A DNA stretch of 9,851 bases from Candidatus Hodarchaeota archaeon (GTDB lineage: Archaea; Asgardarchaeota; Heimdallarchaeia; Hodarchaeales; YT1-039): positions 1-9,851 of the forward strand of contig JAEOTF010000260.1 in NCBI GenBank assembly GCA_016840025.1, given 5' to 3'. The first letter of the stretch is position 1. Each line of letters opens with the position of its first letter. Shown piece by piece: positions 1 through 9,851 of this stretch. The translations under genes and the position numbers were made by a program. The notes under the pieces are model-generated. The model was not told the DNA's origin, searched no databases, and was given only the letters and a program-made list of their open reading frames with translations.

Positions 1-127
1 ATTGCCACACCAATAGTATTATAACGCATAGGAGTGTCAAAAAGTAAATGGATTCGGAAAATAAAAAGCAAGAATCCCCCGCATTAACCAAATTATTAGC
101 AAATCACTCCAACTTGGCTAATTTTGA
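1..127. repeat. Terminal direct repeat, copy 1 (circle overlap)
   Basis: Bases 1..127 are identical, base for base, to 9725..9851. The repeat covers the 5' leader and first 80 bases of the TFB-like gene. An exact overlap at both contig ends with nothing beyond it is best read as the same locus read twice on a closed circle of 9,724 bp. The length of 127 equals a commonly used maximum assembler k-mer. Less likely alternatives are a tandem head-to-tail array or a linear element with terminal repeats. Confidence 0.95.
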
Positions 128-950
128 CATTAATGAGCAAGAAATTGTAGATGATGAGACAGAAACTTCTTCATTACATTTTGAAGATCCATCATATGAT
201 TCTAGTACGTTTAAAACCCGACGATGGAAACTTGGAAGCCAAATAGGCGCTGTTTCCAGACATGATCGAAAAGAATTTCGGAAACTTAAACATATTCACC
301 AAAGTATTACTTCCAAGGAAAATGAATTAGATTCCAAAACAATTAAGCGCAATTTCTATTTTGCATCACTTTTAGTTCAATGGTTTCCTGAACCATTAAT
401 TGATCACGCTGTTGCTGAGCTAAACAATACAGATCCCACTAAGGTTGTGGCAGATGAATCGGTTATATGCAGGATTCTTGGATATATTGAAGCTTTATTA
501 CGTGTTTCATGTAGATCCATTCCATGGGCAACAGTGTTTGAGATAAATGAACAATTAGGAGTTAAAATTGAAAAGAAAAAAATCATCTCTTCAAAATTTA
601 AAGCAGTTAGTTCTGGTGCATTTAAAGAATTTTACAAAAAAAACGCATCCTTGGAATCCTTTAATGTTGTACGATTTTACATGACTCGCTTAATTGCGGA
701 AATTGATATCAAAAAGGTCGATATTTCTCAAAAAAAGGAGATTTTGGCCCTTAGTCGTCGGCTTTGTAAGTTTTTAGAATATAAGAGACTTGTACCCAAG
801 GATCCCGAAATTTATGGACATGCTATCGTAGAAATTGCATGTAAAAATGTACTAAAGACTCGAAACTTACAAACTCTTCAAGATCCCCGGTTAAAAAAGA
901 AACTTTCAACCGCTATTCACTATATCAAAAAACAATGTAAACAGGGTTAA
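48..950 (+). CDS. Divergent TFB/TFIIB-like transcription factor without zinc ribbon
   Basis: 300 aa, cytosolic, probably promoter-binding. Residues 1-55 are acidic and look disordered. Residues 60-86 (LGSQIGAVSRHDRKEF then RKLKHIHQSI) resemble the archaeal TFB linker 'GLST.IG..(x)n..RLRKWQ.RI'. Residues 100-190 match the first cyclin-like repeat (KRNFYFA like the family ERNLAFA; ICRILGYIEALLRVSC like the helix ending LYAACR). Residues 206-295 match the second cyclin repeat. The family's N-terminal CxxC...CxxC zinc ribbon, which contacts RNA polymerase, is absent: cysteines are only at 141, 155, 240, 265 and 297. An in-frame TAA directly precedes the ATG, so the ribbon has not been missed by start choice. 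The protein may modulate or repress plasmid or host promoters, or bind DNA for another purpose. The assignment comes from motif reading only; another cyclin-fold DNA-binding protein is possible. Confidence 0.62.
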   Translation: MDSENKKQESPALTKLLANHSNLANFDINEQEIVDDETETSSLHFEDPSYDSSTFKTRRWKLGSQIGAVSRHDRKEFRKLKHIHQSITSKENELDSKTIKRNFYFASLLVQWFPEPLIDHAVAELNNTDPTKVVADESVICRILGYIEALLRVSCRSIPWATVFEINEQLGVKIEKKKIISSKFKAVSSGAFKEFYKKNASLESFNVVRFYMTRLIAEIDIKKVDISQKKEILALSRRLCKFLEYKRLVPKDPEIYGHAIVEIACKNVLKTRNLQTLQDPRLKKKLSTAIHYIKKQCKQG

Positions 951-1028: not shown

Positions 1029-1955
1029 ATGAGTGGAGAAACTCCGAACATGTATGCACTAAAAGAGACTGTTGCTGATCCACGGGCGCAAAGAAATCTC
1101 TTTCATTCATATAAAAAACTTGTTAGACCAACAGTTGTCATTATGGGCCTTACCAATGGATTGGTTGGAGTTTTTTATGCAGGAATTGCTTTTAATTCAC
1201 TTATTTATGCATTTATTGCCCTTTTCTCTATTGCATGCATTGCCGCGTTCTCTTATGGTTATAATCAACTTACAGATCTCGAAGAAGATCGAATTAATGC
1301 ACCTTTACGACCTTTAGTTACAGGAGAACTGTCAGTAAAGGAATGTAAGATATTTCTTACTATTTTATTACTTTTTAGTACAGTTCCTTTATTAATTTTG
1401 GGCCGTTATCTTGCTTTAGGCCTTATGCTTGCTGGCCCAGTATTTAGTGGAGTGATATACTCCCGTTGGCGAGTAAAAGGCTCAATGATCAAACCACTTT
1501 TTGTGGCTTTTGGATGGTCCTTTGTCCCTTTAATTGCTTATAGTGCGATAACTAATCAAATTACAGTCTTATTTTTAGTTTTTTTACCTTTTTTCCTGTC
1601 TTTAATGTTTCTTACTACAACTATGGGCGATTTACGTGATGTAGAGGGAGATAAAGAAAATGGTGTTAGATCTCTTCCTGTAATATTTGGAATTCGTGCA
1701 GTAATAGTTAATCTTCAAATCTACACTATTACGACTTACTTCATTCTTGTTTTGGGGATTATATTGCAGGTCCTACCAATCGACGCCACTTGTGGACTGC
1801 TTGGAGGGCTTCTTCTTTTACGCCACATAAGAACTCCAGACGTTCTCTCCCGTCAAAAAGGCATGAAAAAATCTCTTGCTCGATTTTCTTGGATAACTTC
1901 CATAGGATTAGTATGTGGAAGGATATTAGCTATTTTGTTTGGACTTATTCTTTAA
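1029..1955 (+). CDS. UbiA-family membrane prenyltransferase
   Basis: Integral membrane enzyme that moves an isoprenoid chain from a polyprenyl diphosphate to an acceptor, releasing pyrophosphate with Mg2+. From the ATG at 1029 it is 308 aa, normal for the family. Both Asp-rich metal/diphosphate motifs are present: NxxxDxxxD (N79, D83, D87, followed by RINAPLRPL) and DxxDxxxD (D201, D204, D208, in GDLRDVEGD followed by SLPV). About eight to nine hydrophobic segments surround them, and RP near residue 33 fits the first helix. In archaea such enzymes make digeranylgeranylglyceryl phosphate (a membrane lipid precursor), quinones or tetrapyrrole side chains; the acceptor cannot be told here. The frame extends upstream to a TTG at 975 (326 aa) without a ribosome site. 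All catalytic residues are present, so it is probably active. A lipid-type enzyme is unusual on so small a circle. Confidence 0.88.
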   Translation: MSGETPNMYALKETVADPRAQRNLFHSYKKLVRPTVVIMGLTNGLVGVFYAGIAFNSLIYAFIALFSIACIAAFSYGYNQLTDLEEDRINAPLRPLVTGELSVKECKIFLTILLLFSTVPLLILGRYLALGLMLAGPVFSGVIYSRWRVKGSMIKPLFVAFGWSFVPLIAYSAITNQITVLFLVFLPFFLSLMFLTTTMGDLRDVEGDKENGVRSLPVIFGIRAVIVNLQIYTITTYFILVLGIILQVLPIDATCGLLGGLLLLRHIRTPDVLSRQKGMKKSLARFSWITSIGLVCGRILAILFGLIL

Positions 1956-3971: not shown

Positions 3972-6900
3972 TTGAAAAGAATGAAAAAAATGAACATTGG
4001 GCTTAGGATGAGCTTATTCTTCCTAGTTCTATTTAATATTGGAATTACTACTAACCCTGCATATGCGATACCTAGTGAAAGCCAAATCACTCTAACCGAA
4101 GTATTTGCAGATCGGACAGACGTATCTGTAGGTGAATCGGTCTTTTTTACAATTCACGTAACAGCCAACGGAACTCCTGTACCTGATGGTCAGGTGACCG
4201 TACGAGAGGCAACGGATCCAATTTATGAACCAAGTGGCACTATTTCAGATGGTGTAGCTATAATTGAATGGTATACTCAAACTTGGACGCCTACAGGATG
4301 GTGTGCCTTTATTGCAACTTATGAAGGAAGTGAAGGTTATAATACTTCTTCAGACACCACTCAAGTAGCAGTAAATAATCCAATTATTCCTGGAACACAG
4401 GAAACAGAAACTATTATTACTCCAAACATAGTAGACGTTTATCCTGATGATACAGTTAATTTTAATGTAGTAGTAACATACTTAGGCAGTTTTTTCCCGT
4501 TCTTTGACGGTGGATATATTATATTAGTAGATACCACAGAAAACATTGTGCTTCAACGACATGACATTGAATTTAAGATGGCACAATCCTATGTTGCATC
4601 TATGAGCTTCACTATTCCTTCTTGGTATGTTAAAGGAAACCATAGCATTGAATCCCGTTATACCGGCTCCAGTGATTCAGGACACGCTGCATCTATCGGT
4701 TCTTGTGTAATTAACATGATAAAAAATGATACTCCACCTCCTCCCGAGGTTTTTACCATTTCAATGATTGGAAATACAACGATTATAGATTATGAAGATG
4801 GAATACTTCAAATTGATGCTACTATCAACGGAGACGACCCTACAGGTAAAATACTCCGATTGCACTCCTATCAAGACGATCGCTCAATTCAGCATTTACT
4901 CGAAGAACTGACAGTAATCTCCCGAGATTATAATTATATTTTCGAACCTAGTCCTATAGACCAACTTGGATCAATTCTCTTTGAATTGACCTTAGAAGAT
5001 CCTAGTACACAAGAAATTAAGGCAACAGCCAATATCTCAGCAACCATTGAAGAAACTATTACGATATATGAAACCATCATTTCACTGGATCAAAACCCAG
5101 TCGAAACCACTTATGGAACTATTGAAATTATTTCTGTCTATATCACTTCTACCTCTGGTAATCCAATCACAGAAGGACAACTCTATTGTGATATTCTTGA
5201 TGAAGATATTATTTTATTAGAACTAGTTACAGATATTTCACAAGGAATTACTACCTTTGAGGTCCCCATTGAAGACTTTGGTGAAGGCAATTATCAACTC
5301 CGCCTTAATTGGCTTGGGAATGCAACACAGAACGCGACAACCTATATTGCAACTCTAAACGTAGCAAAAGGAATCCCATTATTGAATTCTGAAATTGCTT
5401 CCAATATGATCCAATATGGTGAGACTACCTCTTGGTCTGCTTATGTGAGCAATTATTTAGGGAACCCAATTGCAAATACTCCAATTAGCTTTGATACTTC
5501 TCTGACTGGCTTCTATTGGGATCATTGGGGGACTGTAATGACTGATGAGACTGGTTATGCTGAAATAGAGATCATATGGACTGAAGAAAATCAGATTCAT
5601 TATGGTAGTCCAGGGACTTACACCGTTCGGATTACTATCGAAGAAAATAACAAGGTCACCTCTCGATTGATGACTCATTCCCTAACTGTTACTGAAAACA
5701 ACGTTATATTAACTTTAGAGGATGTTAGTATTACTCGGTTAGGGACTGCTATACTTGAGGGTACTTTATTAACTTCTACTAGTGAACCTATTTTCAATGC
5801 ATTGATCACTTTATATTGGAATGGTACTGCAACAGAAACATGGGAAGAATTGACTACTACCACTACCAACGCTTTCGGACAATATTTCAGTGAAATAGAA
5901 ATTATTTTACCTCCTAAATATTATGGTTTAAGGGCAGAATATGATGGTGATGATAACTACGGTAGTTCATCTCAAACTGCCATTTTAGAGGTCTTAGACA
6001 ATCCTTCAGAACTCAAAAAAATCGATATTACACCTACCACCTTAGATTTAGGAGATATAGTTGAACTCAAGGTAAATGCAACGGATCCTGATTCTATCAG
6101 CTCTGTCACAGCTATTATTTACAATGATAACTATAACATCAGTATACCTCTTGATTATCAAGATAATCTCTTTCAGAAGACAATTTGGTGTGATACACAA
6201 TATCAACTTGGAATTTGGACAGTAGATCTAATTATTATTGATGAATTAGATATAGAAAGCACTTTTACTAACGTTGGACAATTCCATATTATAGCTAATC
6301 CTGCTCCAAATGTAATTTATAGTGTAACCCCAGATTCAATTCCTGATGGTTCTTCTGTTGAATTTCAAATAACTGCTACAGATTCTTTAGGTATTGCTTC
6401 TGTTAAAATAGAAATAGAACATACAATATATGATATTACTCAGGATAATAATATATCATCTAGAAATGGGCAACTTTCTACCCTTTTTGGTGATGAACAA
6501 AATTCTCGTGACATTATGAGTTATCTACGCGCGCGCGAAGAAAACAGCTTCTCCTTCTGCTATACCCCCAAAGGTATTGGTTCTGTACCATTTACCATCT
6601 ATGTGGAGGACTATGCTGGTCAGCAAAAAATTCTCAATGGAAATATTATGGTTGAGGCGATAGCGCCTGAGTTATCTGTTGCTTCAATGAGTTCTCTCAA
6701 CGGAACAGCACCCTTCTCCTTTTCTCTCGTATTGAATGGAACAGATGGCTCAGGTATAAATTATATATGCTTATACGCAAATGACGAAGAATTTCTTCTT
6801 CAATATACTCCTTCCAAAGATCAATGGGAAATTTCCATGGTCTTAAGTGCAGCTGACTATACTTTGATCGTTATAGCTGAAGATAATGTTGGAACACAGG

Positions 6901-7664
6901 CTACCTTAGATCTGGGTATGCTATCCGTTTCTCAGGCCGTTTTTGAAATATTTTTTGAAAACGAAAATTTATACGATGGAGAAGCTACAAATTTCACAAT
7001 TAAAGGTGATATTAGCTTAGCCAACGCCACTGTAGATGTATTTTGGGGCAATCAAAATATGACATTAATTTTAGACTCAAATGCTATAGTTACCAGTGAA
7101 CTCACCTTTTCTCAACCTGATACTTACATAATCGAGGTTATTATCACTGACCAAATGGGTGTTCAACTGACTCAAAATTATAGTTTTGATGTCGCGGCTA
7201 AAGGTCCAGAATTCGAAGCTGTTTATCCTGATGCGGCAATGATAGCCGAATTTCGTAATCCCTTTATACTTGAACTCGAAGCTCTCGTAACAGATGCTTC
7301 AGGAATAAATGGTGTGGTACTATACGCTGATTCCGCTGCTTATCCTCTTATTAACAATTTTGGTGTTTGGAATACTAATGTAGACTTTAATGAAGGCATT
7401 TACACCCTTAAATTAGTGGCTACTGATTACTATGGTACAGAAACGATCTATGAACTCGGTGAAATGACGATTCAAAAGATTTCATCTTCAGTTTCAGAAC
7501 CTATTCCAGTTCCATCCTCAAATCCTTCTCAAACATCTAAAAATGAGGGTAATAGCATAGAACCTGCAGTAGGCATGATAGTCCTCATAGTAGTTGCAGT
7601 TTCTGGAAGTTTAATTGTTTATTGGAGAAAGAAACCTAAACCTACCATGATTACTTCCACTTAA
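3972..7664 (+). CDS. Giant anchored surface protein with about eleven Ig-like domains
   Basis: 1,230 aa secreted cell-surface protein. A signal peptide covers residues 1-32: basic start, hydrophobic 12-27, then the cleavage-like TNPAYA. All-beta modules of about 90-110 residues follow, at roughly 38-135, 145-250, 260-360, 365-466, 468-575, 578-677, 680-776, 778-896, 897-988, 989-1077 and 1078-1169. Several carry Ig-like hallmarks (VSVGESVFFTIHV, GNPIANTPISF, YYGLRAEYDGDDNYGSS). A Ser/Pro-rich stalk (1170-1198), one membrane helix (about 1199-1217) and a basic tail RKKPKP end the protein. More than a dozen N-x-S/T sites suggest heavy glycosylation. The role is probably adhesion, a coat component or a spike. 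GGTG seven bases upstream favours the TTG at 3972; ATGs at 3981 and 3990 are alternatives. At 3.7 kb it fills over a third of the circle. It is intact, with no frameshift. Confidence 0.85.
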   Translation: MKRMKKMNIGLRMSLFFLVLFNIGITTNPAYAIPSESQITLTEVFADRTDVSVGESVFFTIHVTANGTPVPDGQVTVREATDPIYEPSGTISDGVAIIEWYTQTWTPTGWCAFIATYEGSEGYNTSSDTTQVAVNNPIIPGTQETETIITPNIVDVYPDDTVNFNVVVTYLGSFFPFFDGGYIILVDTTENIVLQRHDIEFKMAQSYVASMSFTIPSWYVKGNHSIESRYTGSSDSGHAASIGSCVINMIKNDTPPPPEVFTISMIGNTTIIDYEDGILQIDATINGDDPTGKILRLHSYQDDRSIQHLLEELTVISRDYNYIFEPSPIDQLGSILFELTLEDPSTQEIKATANISATIEETITIYETIISLDQNPVETTYGTIEIISVYITSTSGNPITEGQLYCDILDEDIILLELVTDISQGITTFEVPIEDFGEGNYQLRLNWLGNATQNATTYIATLNVAKGIPLLNSEIASNMIQYGETTSWSAYVSNYLGNPIANTPISFDTSLTGFYWDHWGTVMTDETGYAEIEIIWTEENQIHYGSPGTYTVRITIEENNKVTSRLMTHSLTVTENNVILTLEDVSITRLGTAILEGTLLTSTSEPIFNALITLYWNGTATETWEELTTTTTNAFGQYFSEIEIILPPKYYGLRAEYDGDDNYGSSSQTAILEVLDNPSELKKIDITPTTLDLGDIVELKVNATDPDSISSVTAIIYNDNYNISIPLDYQDNLFQKTIWCDTQYQLGIWTVDLIIIDELDIESTFTNVGQFHIIANPAPNVIYSVTPDSIPDGSSVEFQITATDSLGIASVKIEIEHTIYDITQDNNISSRNGQLSTLFGDEQNSRDIMSYLRAREENSFSFCYTPKGIGSVPFTIYVEDYAGQQKILNGNIMVEAIAPELSVASMSSLNGTAPFSFSLVLNGTDGSGINYICLYANDEEFLLQYTPSKDQWEISMVLSAADYTLIVIAEDNVGTQATLDLGMLSVSQAVFEIFFENENLYDGEATNFTIKGDISLANATVDVFWGNQNMTLILDSNAIVTSELTFSQPDTYIIEVIITDQMGVQLTQNYSFDVAAKGPEFEAVYPDAAMIAEFRNPFILELEALVTDASGINGVVLYADSAAYPLINNFGVWNTNVDFNEGIYTLKLVATDYYGTETIYELGEMTIQKISSSVSEPIPVPSSNPSQTSKNEGNSIEPAVGMIVLIVVAVSGSLIVYWRKKPKPTMITST

Positions 7665-7710
7665 GATTTGATATCATACTGCTTAAAGAGTTATTTCTTT
7701 TTTAATTCCA
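7665..7710 (+). terminator. T-tract terminator after the large surface protein
   Basis: Eight-base palindrome TGATATCA (7670..7677) followed by TTATTTCTTTTTTAATT, including T6 at 7698..7703. It fits termination of the surface-protein mRNA about 35 bases after the stop. Confidence 0.4.
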
Positions 7711-7861
7711 TAAATTCATCATAAGAATCTTTAGTTAACATCTTATTACGTTTGAGGTACTCTTGAATGAATTTTTTATTTTTAAAAGGAGATTTGACTT
7801 TTCAGAAACATTTTAACCCTTGAGCGTGGTTCATAATAATCAAACGTATGAGAATGTTATT
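7691..7861 (-). pseudogene. Possible decayed reading frame on the minus strand
   Basis: Reading the minus strand from 7861 to 7691 gives 19 codons ending MNHAQGLKCF, a TGA at 7804..7802, and then 36 codons (KVKSPFKNKKFIQEYLKRNK, then MLTKDSYDEFMELKKK) ending in TAA at 7693..7691. A further in-frame TGA lies at 7864..7862, preceded by an ATG codon at 7870..7868. The second segment reads like a protein C-terminus (alternating Lys/Glu, amphipathic). No family is recognised, and lysine-rich frames arise easily in AT-rich DNA, so this may be chance. If real, it is a remnant broken by two TGA codons. Confidence 0.2.
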
Positions 7862-7880
7862 TCACGCCATTTTTAGAATA

Positions 7881-7958
7881 CTGGCATATATAAAATAATT
7901 TACTAATTACTAATTATATAATTTTGAAAATAATTCGTAATTTTGGTTAAGTCAACTC
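7881..7958. other. AT-rich tract with short repeats (possible DNA-unwinding element)
   Basis: About 78 bases, almost all A/T, with a tandem 7-bp repeat ACTAATT (7902..7915), a perfect palindrome AATTATATAATT (7912..7923), and TTTTGAAAATAATTC-type runs. It directly abuts the GC-rich repeat block at 7962..8225. An easily melted tract beside repeated motifs is the usual architecture of plasmid and archaeal origins. This is an inference from layout, as no initiator gene is recognised. Confidence 0.35.
7884..7896 (+). promoter_or_regulatory. TATA-like box upstream of the structured intergenic block
   Basis: GCATATATAAAAT is a strong TATA-like sequence with no open gene for about 440 bases downstream. 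Transcription would start near 7917-7920 and run into the GC-rich structured block. Its presence is one reason to think that block is transcribed as RNA. Confidence 0.35.
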
Positions 7959-7961
7959 AAA

Positions 7962-7973
7962 GGGGAGACACCC
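7962..7973. repeat. Left arm of an imperfect inverted repeat around the GC-rich block
   Basis: GGGGAGACACCC can pair with GGGTGTCCCC at 8211..8220, with a two-base AG bulge, so the two arms enclose about 240 bases containing all the hairpins. The pairing is partly due to the G/C tracts themselves. Confidence 0.35.
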
Positions 7974-7991
7974 TTCCATCCTTATAATTGT

Positions 7992-8009
7992 CCCCCCCCA
8001 TACCCCCCC
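7992..8009. repeat. Double poly-C tract (C8-ATA-C7)
   Basis: Eight C, then ATA, then seven C; the minus strand has matching G runs with quadruplex potential. The tract can also pair with G10 at 8204..8213, closing the structured block. Such runs are striking in this AT-rich element and are also places where the exact count may be a sequencing error. Confidence 0.7.
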
Positions 8010-8070
8010 TTTACAAGCACGACTCATCGTGCGGGTGCGCCCGAGCTGAGCCGTGACTTGGATGCGCAGT

Positions 8071-8137
8071 CGTCGACGGTTGAGATATCTCTATCGTCGA
8101 CGGTACTATCCGATGGTACTGTACATGGGACGTCGAC
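8071..8137. repeat. Three copies of CGTCGAC (iteron-like)
   Basis: CGTCGAC occurs at 8071..8077, 8095..8101 and 8131..8137. The first two lie in an 11-bp direct repeat TCGTCGACGGT (8070..8080 and 8094..8104), 24 bp apart. Each core is almost a perfect palindrome (CGTCGACG). Regularly spaced repeats beside an AT-rich tract resemble initiator-binding iterons, but the same bases are accounted for by the RNA fold, so both readings remain open. Confidence 0.45.
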
Positions 8138-8203
8138 AGCGTCCCGGGGCGGCTTCCAAAAATGGTCATTTTTGAAAATTTTTTTCACAATTTCACAGTT
8201 GAT

Positions 8204-8223
8204 GGGGGGGGGGTGTCCCCCCC
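8204..8223. repeat. G10-TGT-C7 perfect hairpin
   Basis: Ten G, TGT, then seven C: a seven-pair stem with a three-base loop, about 20 bases after the T7 that ends the candidate RNA. It can instead pair with the poly-C tract at 7992..8009. It could block polymerases (replication or transcription) or insulate the downstream surface-protein gene. Confidence 0.65.
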
Positions 8224-8304
8224 TATGTCAGACCCAGACCATCAGGTGATGCATCTTCTTCATAATGAATTTTTCACATGGAGGAAAAAGAGGTATTTCT
8301 GAAA

Positions 8305-8312
8305 TTTAAATA
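8305..8312 (+). promoter_or_regulatory. TATA-like box for the second surface protein
   Basis: TTTAAATA would start transcription near 8331-8337, which coincides with the ATG at 8331 and lies just before the TTG at 8341. The mRNA is therefore probably leaderless or nearly so. Upstream, 8224..8304 holds only an 8-base motif CAGGTGAT (8243..8250) whose complement occurs at 8352..8359, and a short ATGGAGGAAA that starts an 11-codon frame. Confidence 0.4.
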
Positions 8313-8340
8313 GGGTAAGCAGTTGGTATTATGAAAGAAA

Positions 8341-9408
8341 TTGCATTCTATCAATCACCTGGGTGTTGTCATTGGACCAATTTTACTAGTTATATCTCTA
8401 GTTTTAGGTATGGTTGGACCTATTGGCATGGGAGGGGCTATGACTCCTATCACTAACGAAAAAGTAAATTTAAACATCATAACTACGTTTTCTTTGGATA
8501 ATACGAGTACAGTTGAGTTTTCTCGAGATTTTTCACTGTCTCAAAAACGAGAGATTTCTCTCCTTCATATTGAATGTCAAGCTACCGAAGATACAGTCAA
8601 CAGTGTATTTGTTAACATGACTCTTAATGGAATAACAACTTCAGAGATTTTTAAGGATTCTACTTCTAGTGCTTCTTCCCCCCATACTTTTTTGGTGGGA
8701 ACTACTCTTACTCTTCGAATTAATTCCTCTACTCCGATTTTTGTTCTCTCAAATTCAATTCAATTAGAAATTACTGTTGATAGTAGGGCTTTTTTTAATG
8801 CTAAAAAAGGAGATTTCCAAATTCAGAAAGTAGAATTTGAAGTTCTGACTCCTCCATCTATTACCTCCACTTCGGAGAACATTGAACTTCCTTTACGAAT
8901 ATCTCAAGGGAATTGGTATGTTTCTCCTTTATCTATGTTAATAGAACGTCAATTTGAATCAGAGATCTATACTCATATAATGGAAGACGTTTCCGTTCGT
9001 ATTGATATTAAACTTCACCCTGCTGATCTCTCTTTATCTTCAACTGCTGTCATCATTGAGACACCGAACTCTGCCTTTGAGAGCACCGGTTATTCTACAA
9101 GTCATTCAGTATTAGCAAGTTTAGTTCAAGGAGATACATTAGCTCTAAAGCTTAAGTTTCGCCCGTCTTCTGAGTTTTCTGAATCAGTTATTAGTATTAC
9201 TTTGACTGTAGCAATTTCAATACTACCTCCAATGACCAACAATGACTCACCAGAATCTCCTTCAGATACTGCACAACTCGATCTTTCATCTTCCGCTTTG
9301 GAGGTTATACGCTTTCTAATGATCGTAGTTCCTTTGTTTATTTTCTATAAGACGAAGAAAAATAAACAGTCATTAAAAGACCAGCCTGTTATAACTTCCG
9401 AAACTTGA
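8341..9408 (+). CDS. Second anchored surface protein, beta-rich, 355 aa
   Basis: Type I membrane topology: a hydrophobic export segment at residues 7-31, a long Ser/Thr-rich ectodomain of alternating beta strands (38-297), a Ser/Pro/Asp-rich stalk (298-318), a membrane helix at about 321-336 and a basic tail KTKKNK. N-x-S/T sites occur, for example at 54, 92 and 128. No family is recognised; the anchor and tail style match the giant surface protein, and the two may be partners. The only in-frame start before the signal segment is TTG at 8341. An ATG at 8331 is one base out of frame: dropping one base from GAAATTG would give MKKLHSIN..., a better signal-peptide start. The true 5' end may therefore be a TTG start or hide a frameshift. 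Its own TATA box makes it a separate transcription unit. Confidence 0.65.
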   Translation: MHSINHLGVVIGPILLVISLVLGMVGPIGMGGAMTPITNEKVNLNIITTFSLDNTSTVEFSRDFSLSQKREISLLHIECQATEDTVNSVFVNMTLNGITTSEIFKDSTSSASSPHTFLVGTTLTLRINSSTPIFVLSNSIQLEITVDSRAFFNAKKGDFQIQKVEFEVLTPPSITSTSENIELPLRISQGNWYVSPLSMLIERQFESEIYTHIMEDVSVRIDIKLHPADLSLSSTAVIIETPNSAFESTGYSTSHSVLASLVQGDTLALKLKFRPSSEFSESVISITLTVAISILPPMTNNDSPESPSDTAQLDLSSSALEVIRFLMIVVPLFIFYKTKKNKQSLKDQPVITSET

Positions 9409-9585: not shown

Positions 9586-9740
9586 AGCAACTCGAGTATG
9601 TGTCCAATGGATATCCGTTGATTAGGGTACGAAATGCCTATACTGACCAGGTAAAACCATTAAAAAACGAGCGAGGACTAAATATCATATACTTTACTTG
9701 GACAGCAGCGTGTTATCCTTATATATTGCCACACCAATAG
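9582..9740 (+). CDS. Possible 52-aa small protein crossing the circle junction
   Basis: Starts in an ATGA overlap with the 27-aa frame (MKQLEYVSNGYPLIRVRNAY...) and ends at TAG 9738..9740, circular position 16, which is 31 bases before the TFB-like ATG. It has mixed basic and aromatic residues and no recognised family. It contains the TATA-like box of the TFB-like gene in its last codons, so if translated it would be a small upstream gene of that regulator. Alternatively it is a chance frame in a regulatory region. Confidence 0.25.
   Translation: MKQLEYVSNGYPLIRVRNAYTDQVKPLKNERGLNIIYFTWTAACYPYILPHQ
9719..9727 (+). promoter_or_regulatory. TATA-like box for the TFB-like gene
   Basis: TTATATATT lies across the circle junction. 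About 25 bases downstream would put transcription start near circular position 24-27, just ahead of an AGGAG ribosome-binding motif at 30..34 and the ATG at 48. This is the expected spacing for an archaeal TATA promoter with a short leader. The promoter is only visible upstream of the gene if the molecule is circular, or by reading the end of the window. Confidence 0.45.
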
Positions 9741-9851
9741 TATTATAACGCATAGGAGTGTCAAAAAGTAAATGGATTCGGAAAATAAAAAGCAAGAATC
9801 CCCCGCATTAACCAAATTATTAGCAAATCACTCCAACTTGGCTAATTTTGA
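9725..9851. repeat. Terminal direct repeat, copy 2 (circle overlap)
   Basis: Exact second copy of bases 1..127. It contains a second, truncated start of the TFB-like gene at 9772..9851, which should not be counted as a separate gene. Subtracting 9,724 from any coordinate here gives its position on the circle. Confidence 0.95.

Follow-up and report, generated by a model that had tools for sequence, protein, structure and literature searches.

A GC-rich, hairpin-forming block in the largest gene-free gap of a small circular Asgard contig: a candidate cis-acting DNA site

The plasmid pRN1 is described as needing a stem-loop of ~100 nt that lies outside its genes (PMC4234260), and SNJ2 is described as needing a hairpin plus an inverted repeat (PMC13107129). 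A composition screen of Pyrococcus abyssi reported 73 GC-rich regions, with 51 known RNA genes among them (PMC3124441). Here we describe a GC-rich block on a circular Asgard contig and weigh whether it is a DNA site, a gene for a structured RNA, a foreign insert, or an artefact.

The window (the whole stretch of DNA that we analyzed, 9,851 nt) represents a contig that is circular and 9724 bp in length: its first 127 nt are exactly its last 127 nt (1-127 and 9725-9851), so the ends close on each other. The GC content of the element is 35.8%. We accepted eight coding genes:

48..950, + strand: TFB-core-like protein of 300 aa, named for its relatives and for its predicted fold, which aligns best with TFB/TFIIB cores
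1029..1955, + strand: UbiA-family prenyltransferase (Pfam, E = 8.2e-35, and relatives)
four further genes: proteins of 89-246 aa that Pfam did not assign confidently to a family
3972-7664: 1230-aa protein with Ig-like domains (Pfam)
8341-9408: gene 8, a 355-aa protein

The 1230-aa protein is likely a surface protein. We placed the start of gene 8 at the TTG codon at 8341 because a relative, P0068, is also 355 aa long and its first residue is the one encoded by TTG. As side observations, a UbiA-family prenyltransferase gene is carried on a small circular element, and the 1230-aa protein, judged by eye, has a signal peptide and a C-terminal membrane segment. TFIIB sequence profiles did not match any of 33 members of the family of the 300-aa protein, even with E up to 1, and a sequence search of solved structures gave no match for the 300-aa protein itself. 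In NCBIfam, nothing was over the cut-off for the UbiA protein among the 25 of 31 matches listed, and the other seven proteins had no match. Neither Pfam nor PHROGs recognized a replication protein on the element; one of an unknown kind would escape both.

Besides itself, the 300-aa TFB-core-like protein has 33 relatives at E <= 0.001, and an organism is named in three of these rows (Promethearchaeota, Thorarchaeota, and Hodarchaeales). The relatives of the UbiA protein bear the names Hermodarchaeota and Hodarchaeales. The longest contig is 9-15 kb in 11 of 34 rows for the 300-aa protein and in 13 of 32 rows for UbiA, with several near 11.0-11.3 kb; most of the remaining rows of both lists have shorter contigs, and four rows in each list have longer ones, of up to 83,585 bp. 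Because 14 contig sizes recur in both lists, the two genes are probably linked, and a TFB-core-like gene beside a UbiA gene is probably a pair that other Asgard contigs share. The contig sizes of the relatives also suggest that the element probably belongs to a family of small circular Asgard plasmids. Gene 8 has five relatives, one of which is 91% identical (by protein comparison) and lies on a contig of 9744 bp. Another of the five comes from a record labeled as a Methylarchaceae genome (contig of 10,254 bp), a label at odds with Asgard archaea; this is possibly a binning error or a sign of a wider host range.

Other searches for relatives were negative. Scanning genome contigs with two protein alignments, or viral contigs with five protein queries, did not confirm any relative, and tblastn did not find the TFB-like protein in plasmids or phages or the UbiA protein in plasmids. 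Neither the listings from our searches of open-access papers nor passages of PMC8813620 showed a small Asgard plasmid with the TFB-core-like and UbiA pair.

The block lies between the genes for the 1230-aa protein and gene 8, with these features in and around it:

7665..8340: largest gene-free gap, 676 nt, which contains the block (of the eight gaps between accepted genes, the next largest is 363 nt)
8016..8155: GC-rich, CpG-rich, and palindrome-rich core, GC 0.607
7887..7921, + strand: TATA-like boxes found by pattern search (TATATA at 7887, TTATATAA at 7914-7921), a putative promoter
8179..8185, + strand: run of seven T, a possible archaeal transcription stop, and one of five runs of at least seven T on this strand of the element
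7992..8009: runs of eight C and seven C
8204..8223: runs of ten G and seven C
7962..7973, + strand: left arm of a possible inverted match around the block, with 8211-8222 as its partner (11 of 12 positions complementary)

Gap sizes were computed with the UbiA start at 1032 instead of 1029, which shifts only another gap, by 3 nt. A preliminary description of this DNA had called the block GC-rich within an AT-rich element, and the compositions agree (0.607 for 8016-8155 versus 0.358); the GC-richest 150 nt of the window begin at 8004, with a GC content of 0.613. The ratio of observed to expected CpG is 1.48 in 8010-8159 versus 0.69 outside 7959-8229, and those 150 nt contain 19 CpG versus at most 10 per 150 nt elsewhere. 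The small ORFs over the block (8058-8249 on the + strand, 8011-8169 and 8024-8188 on the - strand) had no Pfam match with E up to 1, and the first two had no match in PHROGs with E up to 0.1. The GC-rich block is real, and it is a well-delimited candidate.

The TATA-like box that had been reported upstream is present, and it is accompanied by a second. TTATATAA at 7914 is the sole copy on the + strand of the element, where TATATA occurs five times. Another sequence, TTTAAATA at 8305, lies ahead of gene 8 and could serve this gene alone, so the block need not be the leader of gene 8. Four of the five runs of at least six C or G in the window are at the edges of the block. One of these edges, 7992-8009, has on its - strand the window's only four-tract motif of the G-quadruplex type, as defined by a simple pattern.

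Within and beside the core, we found several dyads and a repeated motif:

8017..8032: perfect hairpin, stem 6, loop 4, absent from the preliminary description
8071..8102: 32-nt dyad without a spacer, 14 of 16 positions paired, which bears most of the folding signal
8102..8120, + strand: hairpin whose + strand RNA is more stable than the complementary RNA
8127..8145: perfect hairpin, stem 6, loop 7, pairing probability 0.99-1.00
8157..8174: A/T-rich perfect hairpin, stem 7, loop 4 (8157-8163/8168-8174)
8071..8139, + strand: three copies of CGTCGAC(A/G)G in one orientation, starting at 8071, 8095, and 8131

The motif CGTCGAC(A/G)G occurs nowhere else in the element on either strand. Because two of the three copies form the arms of the dyad, these two do not count as independent. 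Among the 16+16 dyads of the element, the one at 8071-8102 ranks first, but 1 of 20 locally shuffled elements reached its score. Palindromes of 6 nt are enriched in the block (8 versus 3.2 in shuffled sequences, with as many in 24 of 2000 shuffles); a count of eight is reached at 113 of 9573 window positions of the element, those over the block included. Perfect hairpins in 8010-8190 comprise 19 stem pairs versus 1.8 in shuffles (0 of 500 as many), and equally many perfect stem pairs are found near 1891-1936.

The earlier proposal was a fold with two hairpins and a three-way junction, and only parts of it held up. Of the 33 base pairs that it named, 32 are standard or G-U pairs, and the exception, 8081/8092, is T-T. 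The helix 8127-8132/8140-8145 is predicted with a probability of 0.99-1.00. The helix 8071-8084/8089-8102 is well predicted from 8074 inward (0.79-1.00), but its outer three pairs have probabilities of just 0.27-0.56. The helices that would join the three-way junction have probabilities of 0.11-0.14 (8048-8053/8150-8155) and 0.02-0.04 (8058-8064/8107-8113), and so we rejected the junction as the main fold. Within 8016-8155, the three-way structure as written has an energy of -41.8 kcal/mol versus a minimum free energy (MFE) of -63.1 kcal/mol, or 21 above the minimum; if its pairs are enforced and the rest is completed, the energy is -59.5 kcal/mol, or 3.6 above the minimum. The G-U pairs had also been offered as an argument for RNA. 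We rejected this argument because five of the six lie in the two improbable helices and because the two strands fold alike in most tests. A hairpin followed by seven T had been proposed as the end of the RNA, and both are present, but a terminator scanner called none (0 found, versus a mean of 0.6 in shuffles); the 7-bp stem (8157-8163/8168-8174) is A/T-rich and stops 4 nt ahead of the T run.

The block does fold better than shuffled sequence; the preliminary description had named the opposite outcome as one that would refute it. The span 7918-8186 has an MFE of -92.4 kcal/mol (z = -4.05), and 0 of 200 shuffles were as good. In a scan of 390 windows on both strands, the lowest z score was for 8001-8150 on the + strand (-4.33; its - strand, -2.40). 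The second lowest, -4.01, was for 5301-5450 on the - strand, inside the gene for the 1230-aa protein. When the dyad 8071-8102 was cut from 8010-8159, z rose to -0.88 (+ strand) and -1.17 (- strand), so the folding signal is chiefly that of one 32-nt dyad, with a further contribution from three perfect hairpins. We conclude that the fold exceeds chance and that it rests largely on this dyad.

For most choices of ends, the two strands fold about equally well. The z scores (+ strand/- strand) were -2.60/-2.76 for 8010-8159, -2.35/-2.39 for 8016-8155, -3.24/-3.53 for 7943-8186, and -5.42/-5.84 for 7959-8229; with DNA energies, they were -3.96/-3.95 for 8010-8190 and -5.89/-5.90 for 7959-8229. For 8048-8155, the + strand was favored (-3.87/-3.03). 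With three different sets of ends, the difference in energy between the strands was matched by 54.8%, 35.3%, and 56.5% of the 400 shuffles. With RNA energies, three of the hairpins are individually more stable on the + strand than on its complement: -20.1 versus -16.3 kcal/mol for 8071-8102, -9.9 versus -2.1 kcal/mol for 8100-8123 (which includes the hairpin 8102-8120), and -12.1 versus -10.5 kcal/mol for 8127-8145. The hairpin at 8017-8032 is equally stable on both strands, and the A/T-rich hairpin at 8157-8174 is weaker on the + strand (-3.0 versus -4.9 kcal/mol). Overall, folding does not settle whether the block acts as RNA or as DNA.

Could the block encode a structured noncoding RNA? Such an RNA would be ~240-270 nt long, would extend from one of the TATA-like boxes (7887 or 7914) as far as the T run at 8179-8185, would contain several hairpins, and might be an antisense or copy-control RNA or belong to an undescribed class. 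The z score of 7918-8186, the top rank of 8001-8150 in the scan, and the stability of the three hairpins as + strand RNA all speak for it, and so do the windows (8001-8150 and 8048-8155) in which the + strand is favored. However, the strand difference is no larger than in shuffles for three choices of ends, and z is equal on both strands for most ends, also with DNA energies. The window has no Rfam match at gathering scores, in keeping with the earlier view that the block resembles no known RNA class; there was also none with E up to 1 for 7940-8240, just weak, chance-level rows for 7600-8400, and no tRNAs. The scanner's failure to find a terminator also counts against an RNA, but a T run can be enough to stop archaeal RNA polymerase, with no hairpin needed, and therefore this result is not decisive. 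The arguments of the preliminary description do not establish an RNA. We consider the RNA doubtful and did not rate it lower because GC islands are often RNA genes in AT-rich archaea (as in P. abyssi; PMC3124441) and because TATA-like boxes and a T run flank the block. We also view as unlikely a foreign insert, that is, a short, non-autonomous mobile or recombined GC- and CpG-rich piece that landed in the gap and has no function for the element. We kept this explanation because the CpG content is so unusual; the inverted match 7962-7973/8211-8222 and a direct repeat, TTTTGAAAAT at 7922 and 8170, would also fit. However, 121 of 1000 shuffles had an inverted match as good as this one, which puts it within chance, and a local aligner preferred an A/T-rich inverted pair, which 70 of 2000 shuffles equaled. 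We therefore rejected the idea that the inverted repeat proves a mobile element. As for the direct repeat, it is a short, AT-rich sequence, and its copies do not enclose the inverted match. blastn did not find a copy in plasmids or phages. Of three exact probes searched against viral contigs, two had no hit and the third hit nine contigs (L002-L010), but what these share is the 19-nt probe itself, to which L003 adds a weak second piece of 19 nt. A miniature inverted-repeat element would have terminal inverted repeats and several copies; here the candidate repeat is the chance-level 12-nt match, and the probes used yielded no further copy in plasmids, phages, or viral contigs.

An artefact of assembly or sequencing, in which an unrelated piece was joined in or a homopolymer error arose between the C and G runs, seems highly improbable. 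We list it because homopolymer runs flank the block. Against it, the two ends of the contig overlap exactly, so that it forms a circle, and the contig with the 91% identical relative of gene 8 is similar in size. A cis-acting DNA site fits best, given the largest gap, the dyads, the repeated motif, the circular replicon, and the lack of a clear strand preference. Our leading, tentative explanation is that the block acts in cis on a small circular Asgard plasmid, most likely in replication or copy control (an origin-type region), since this is the likeliest kind of cis-acting site in a small plasmid. The enrichment of 6-nt palindromes and of perfect hairpins speaks for it, as do the archaeal parallels pRN1 and SNJ2; the dependence between two of the motif copies and the equally hairpin-rich stretch near 1891-1936 speak against it. 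We hold it at less than even confidence because a replication gene is absent or unrecognized and because tests of skew and of origin boxes were unsupportive. Namely, the extremes of GC skew (439 and 4344) and of AT skew (1977 and 6261) are not at the block, and sites that resemble the origin-box consensus are at the level of chance (9 versus 7.9 expected), with none in 7665-8340.

If the block is an origin-type site, then a dimeric protein may bind its dyads and all three copies of CGTCGAC(A/G)G; this could be an initiator from the host or the element's own TFB-core-like protein. Unwound or single-stranded DNA could let the hairpins extrude, and replication would start, or be controlled, at the block. 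A bolder version, which we consider very unlikely, is a new kind of replicon: circular Asgard plasmids of ~9-14 kb that do without a classical replication protein. In these plasmids, a TFB-core-like protein specific to the family, co-opted from transcription initiation, would recognize the palindromic GC island and start or control replication there, possibly via a structured transcript. If the island controls a family of small Asgard plasmids with the TFB-core-like and UbiA pair, it would reveal their mode of replication and might help in building a genetic vector for the archaea that are closest to eukaryotes. If it encodes an RNA, then this would be an undescribed one.

The known systems each share some features with the block. 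Like the origins of pRN1-type crenarchaeal plasmids, the block is noncoding, can form hairpins, and lies on what is probably a small circular plasmid of archaea; however, pRN1 has one long stem-loop downstream of its replication gene (PMC4234260), whereas the block has several separate hairpins and the element has no recognized replication gene. The origin of the pleolipovirus SNJ2, whose Rep is of the Rep-Arvir family, likewise has a dyad like a binding site near further hairpins, but the element lacks a recognized Rep of this or any other family (PMC13107129). In both pRN1 and SNJ2, the hairpins lie just downstream of the replication gene (PMC4234260, PMC13107129). The GC-rich RNA genes of AT-rich archaea resemble the block in being intergenic, with TATA-like boxes before them and a T run after; those GC-rich regions include known RNA genes (PMC3124441), whereas the block is a candidate without a clear strand preference. 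Finally, repetitive extragenic palindromes (REPs) are also palindromes between genes, but they recur across a genome, while the block is single in its element (PMC12306157).
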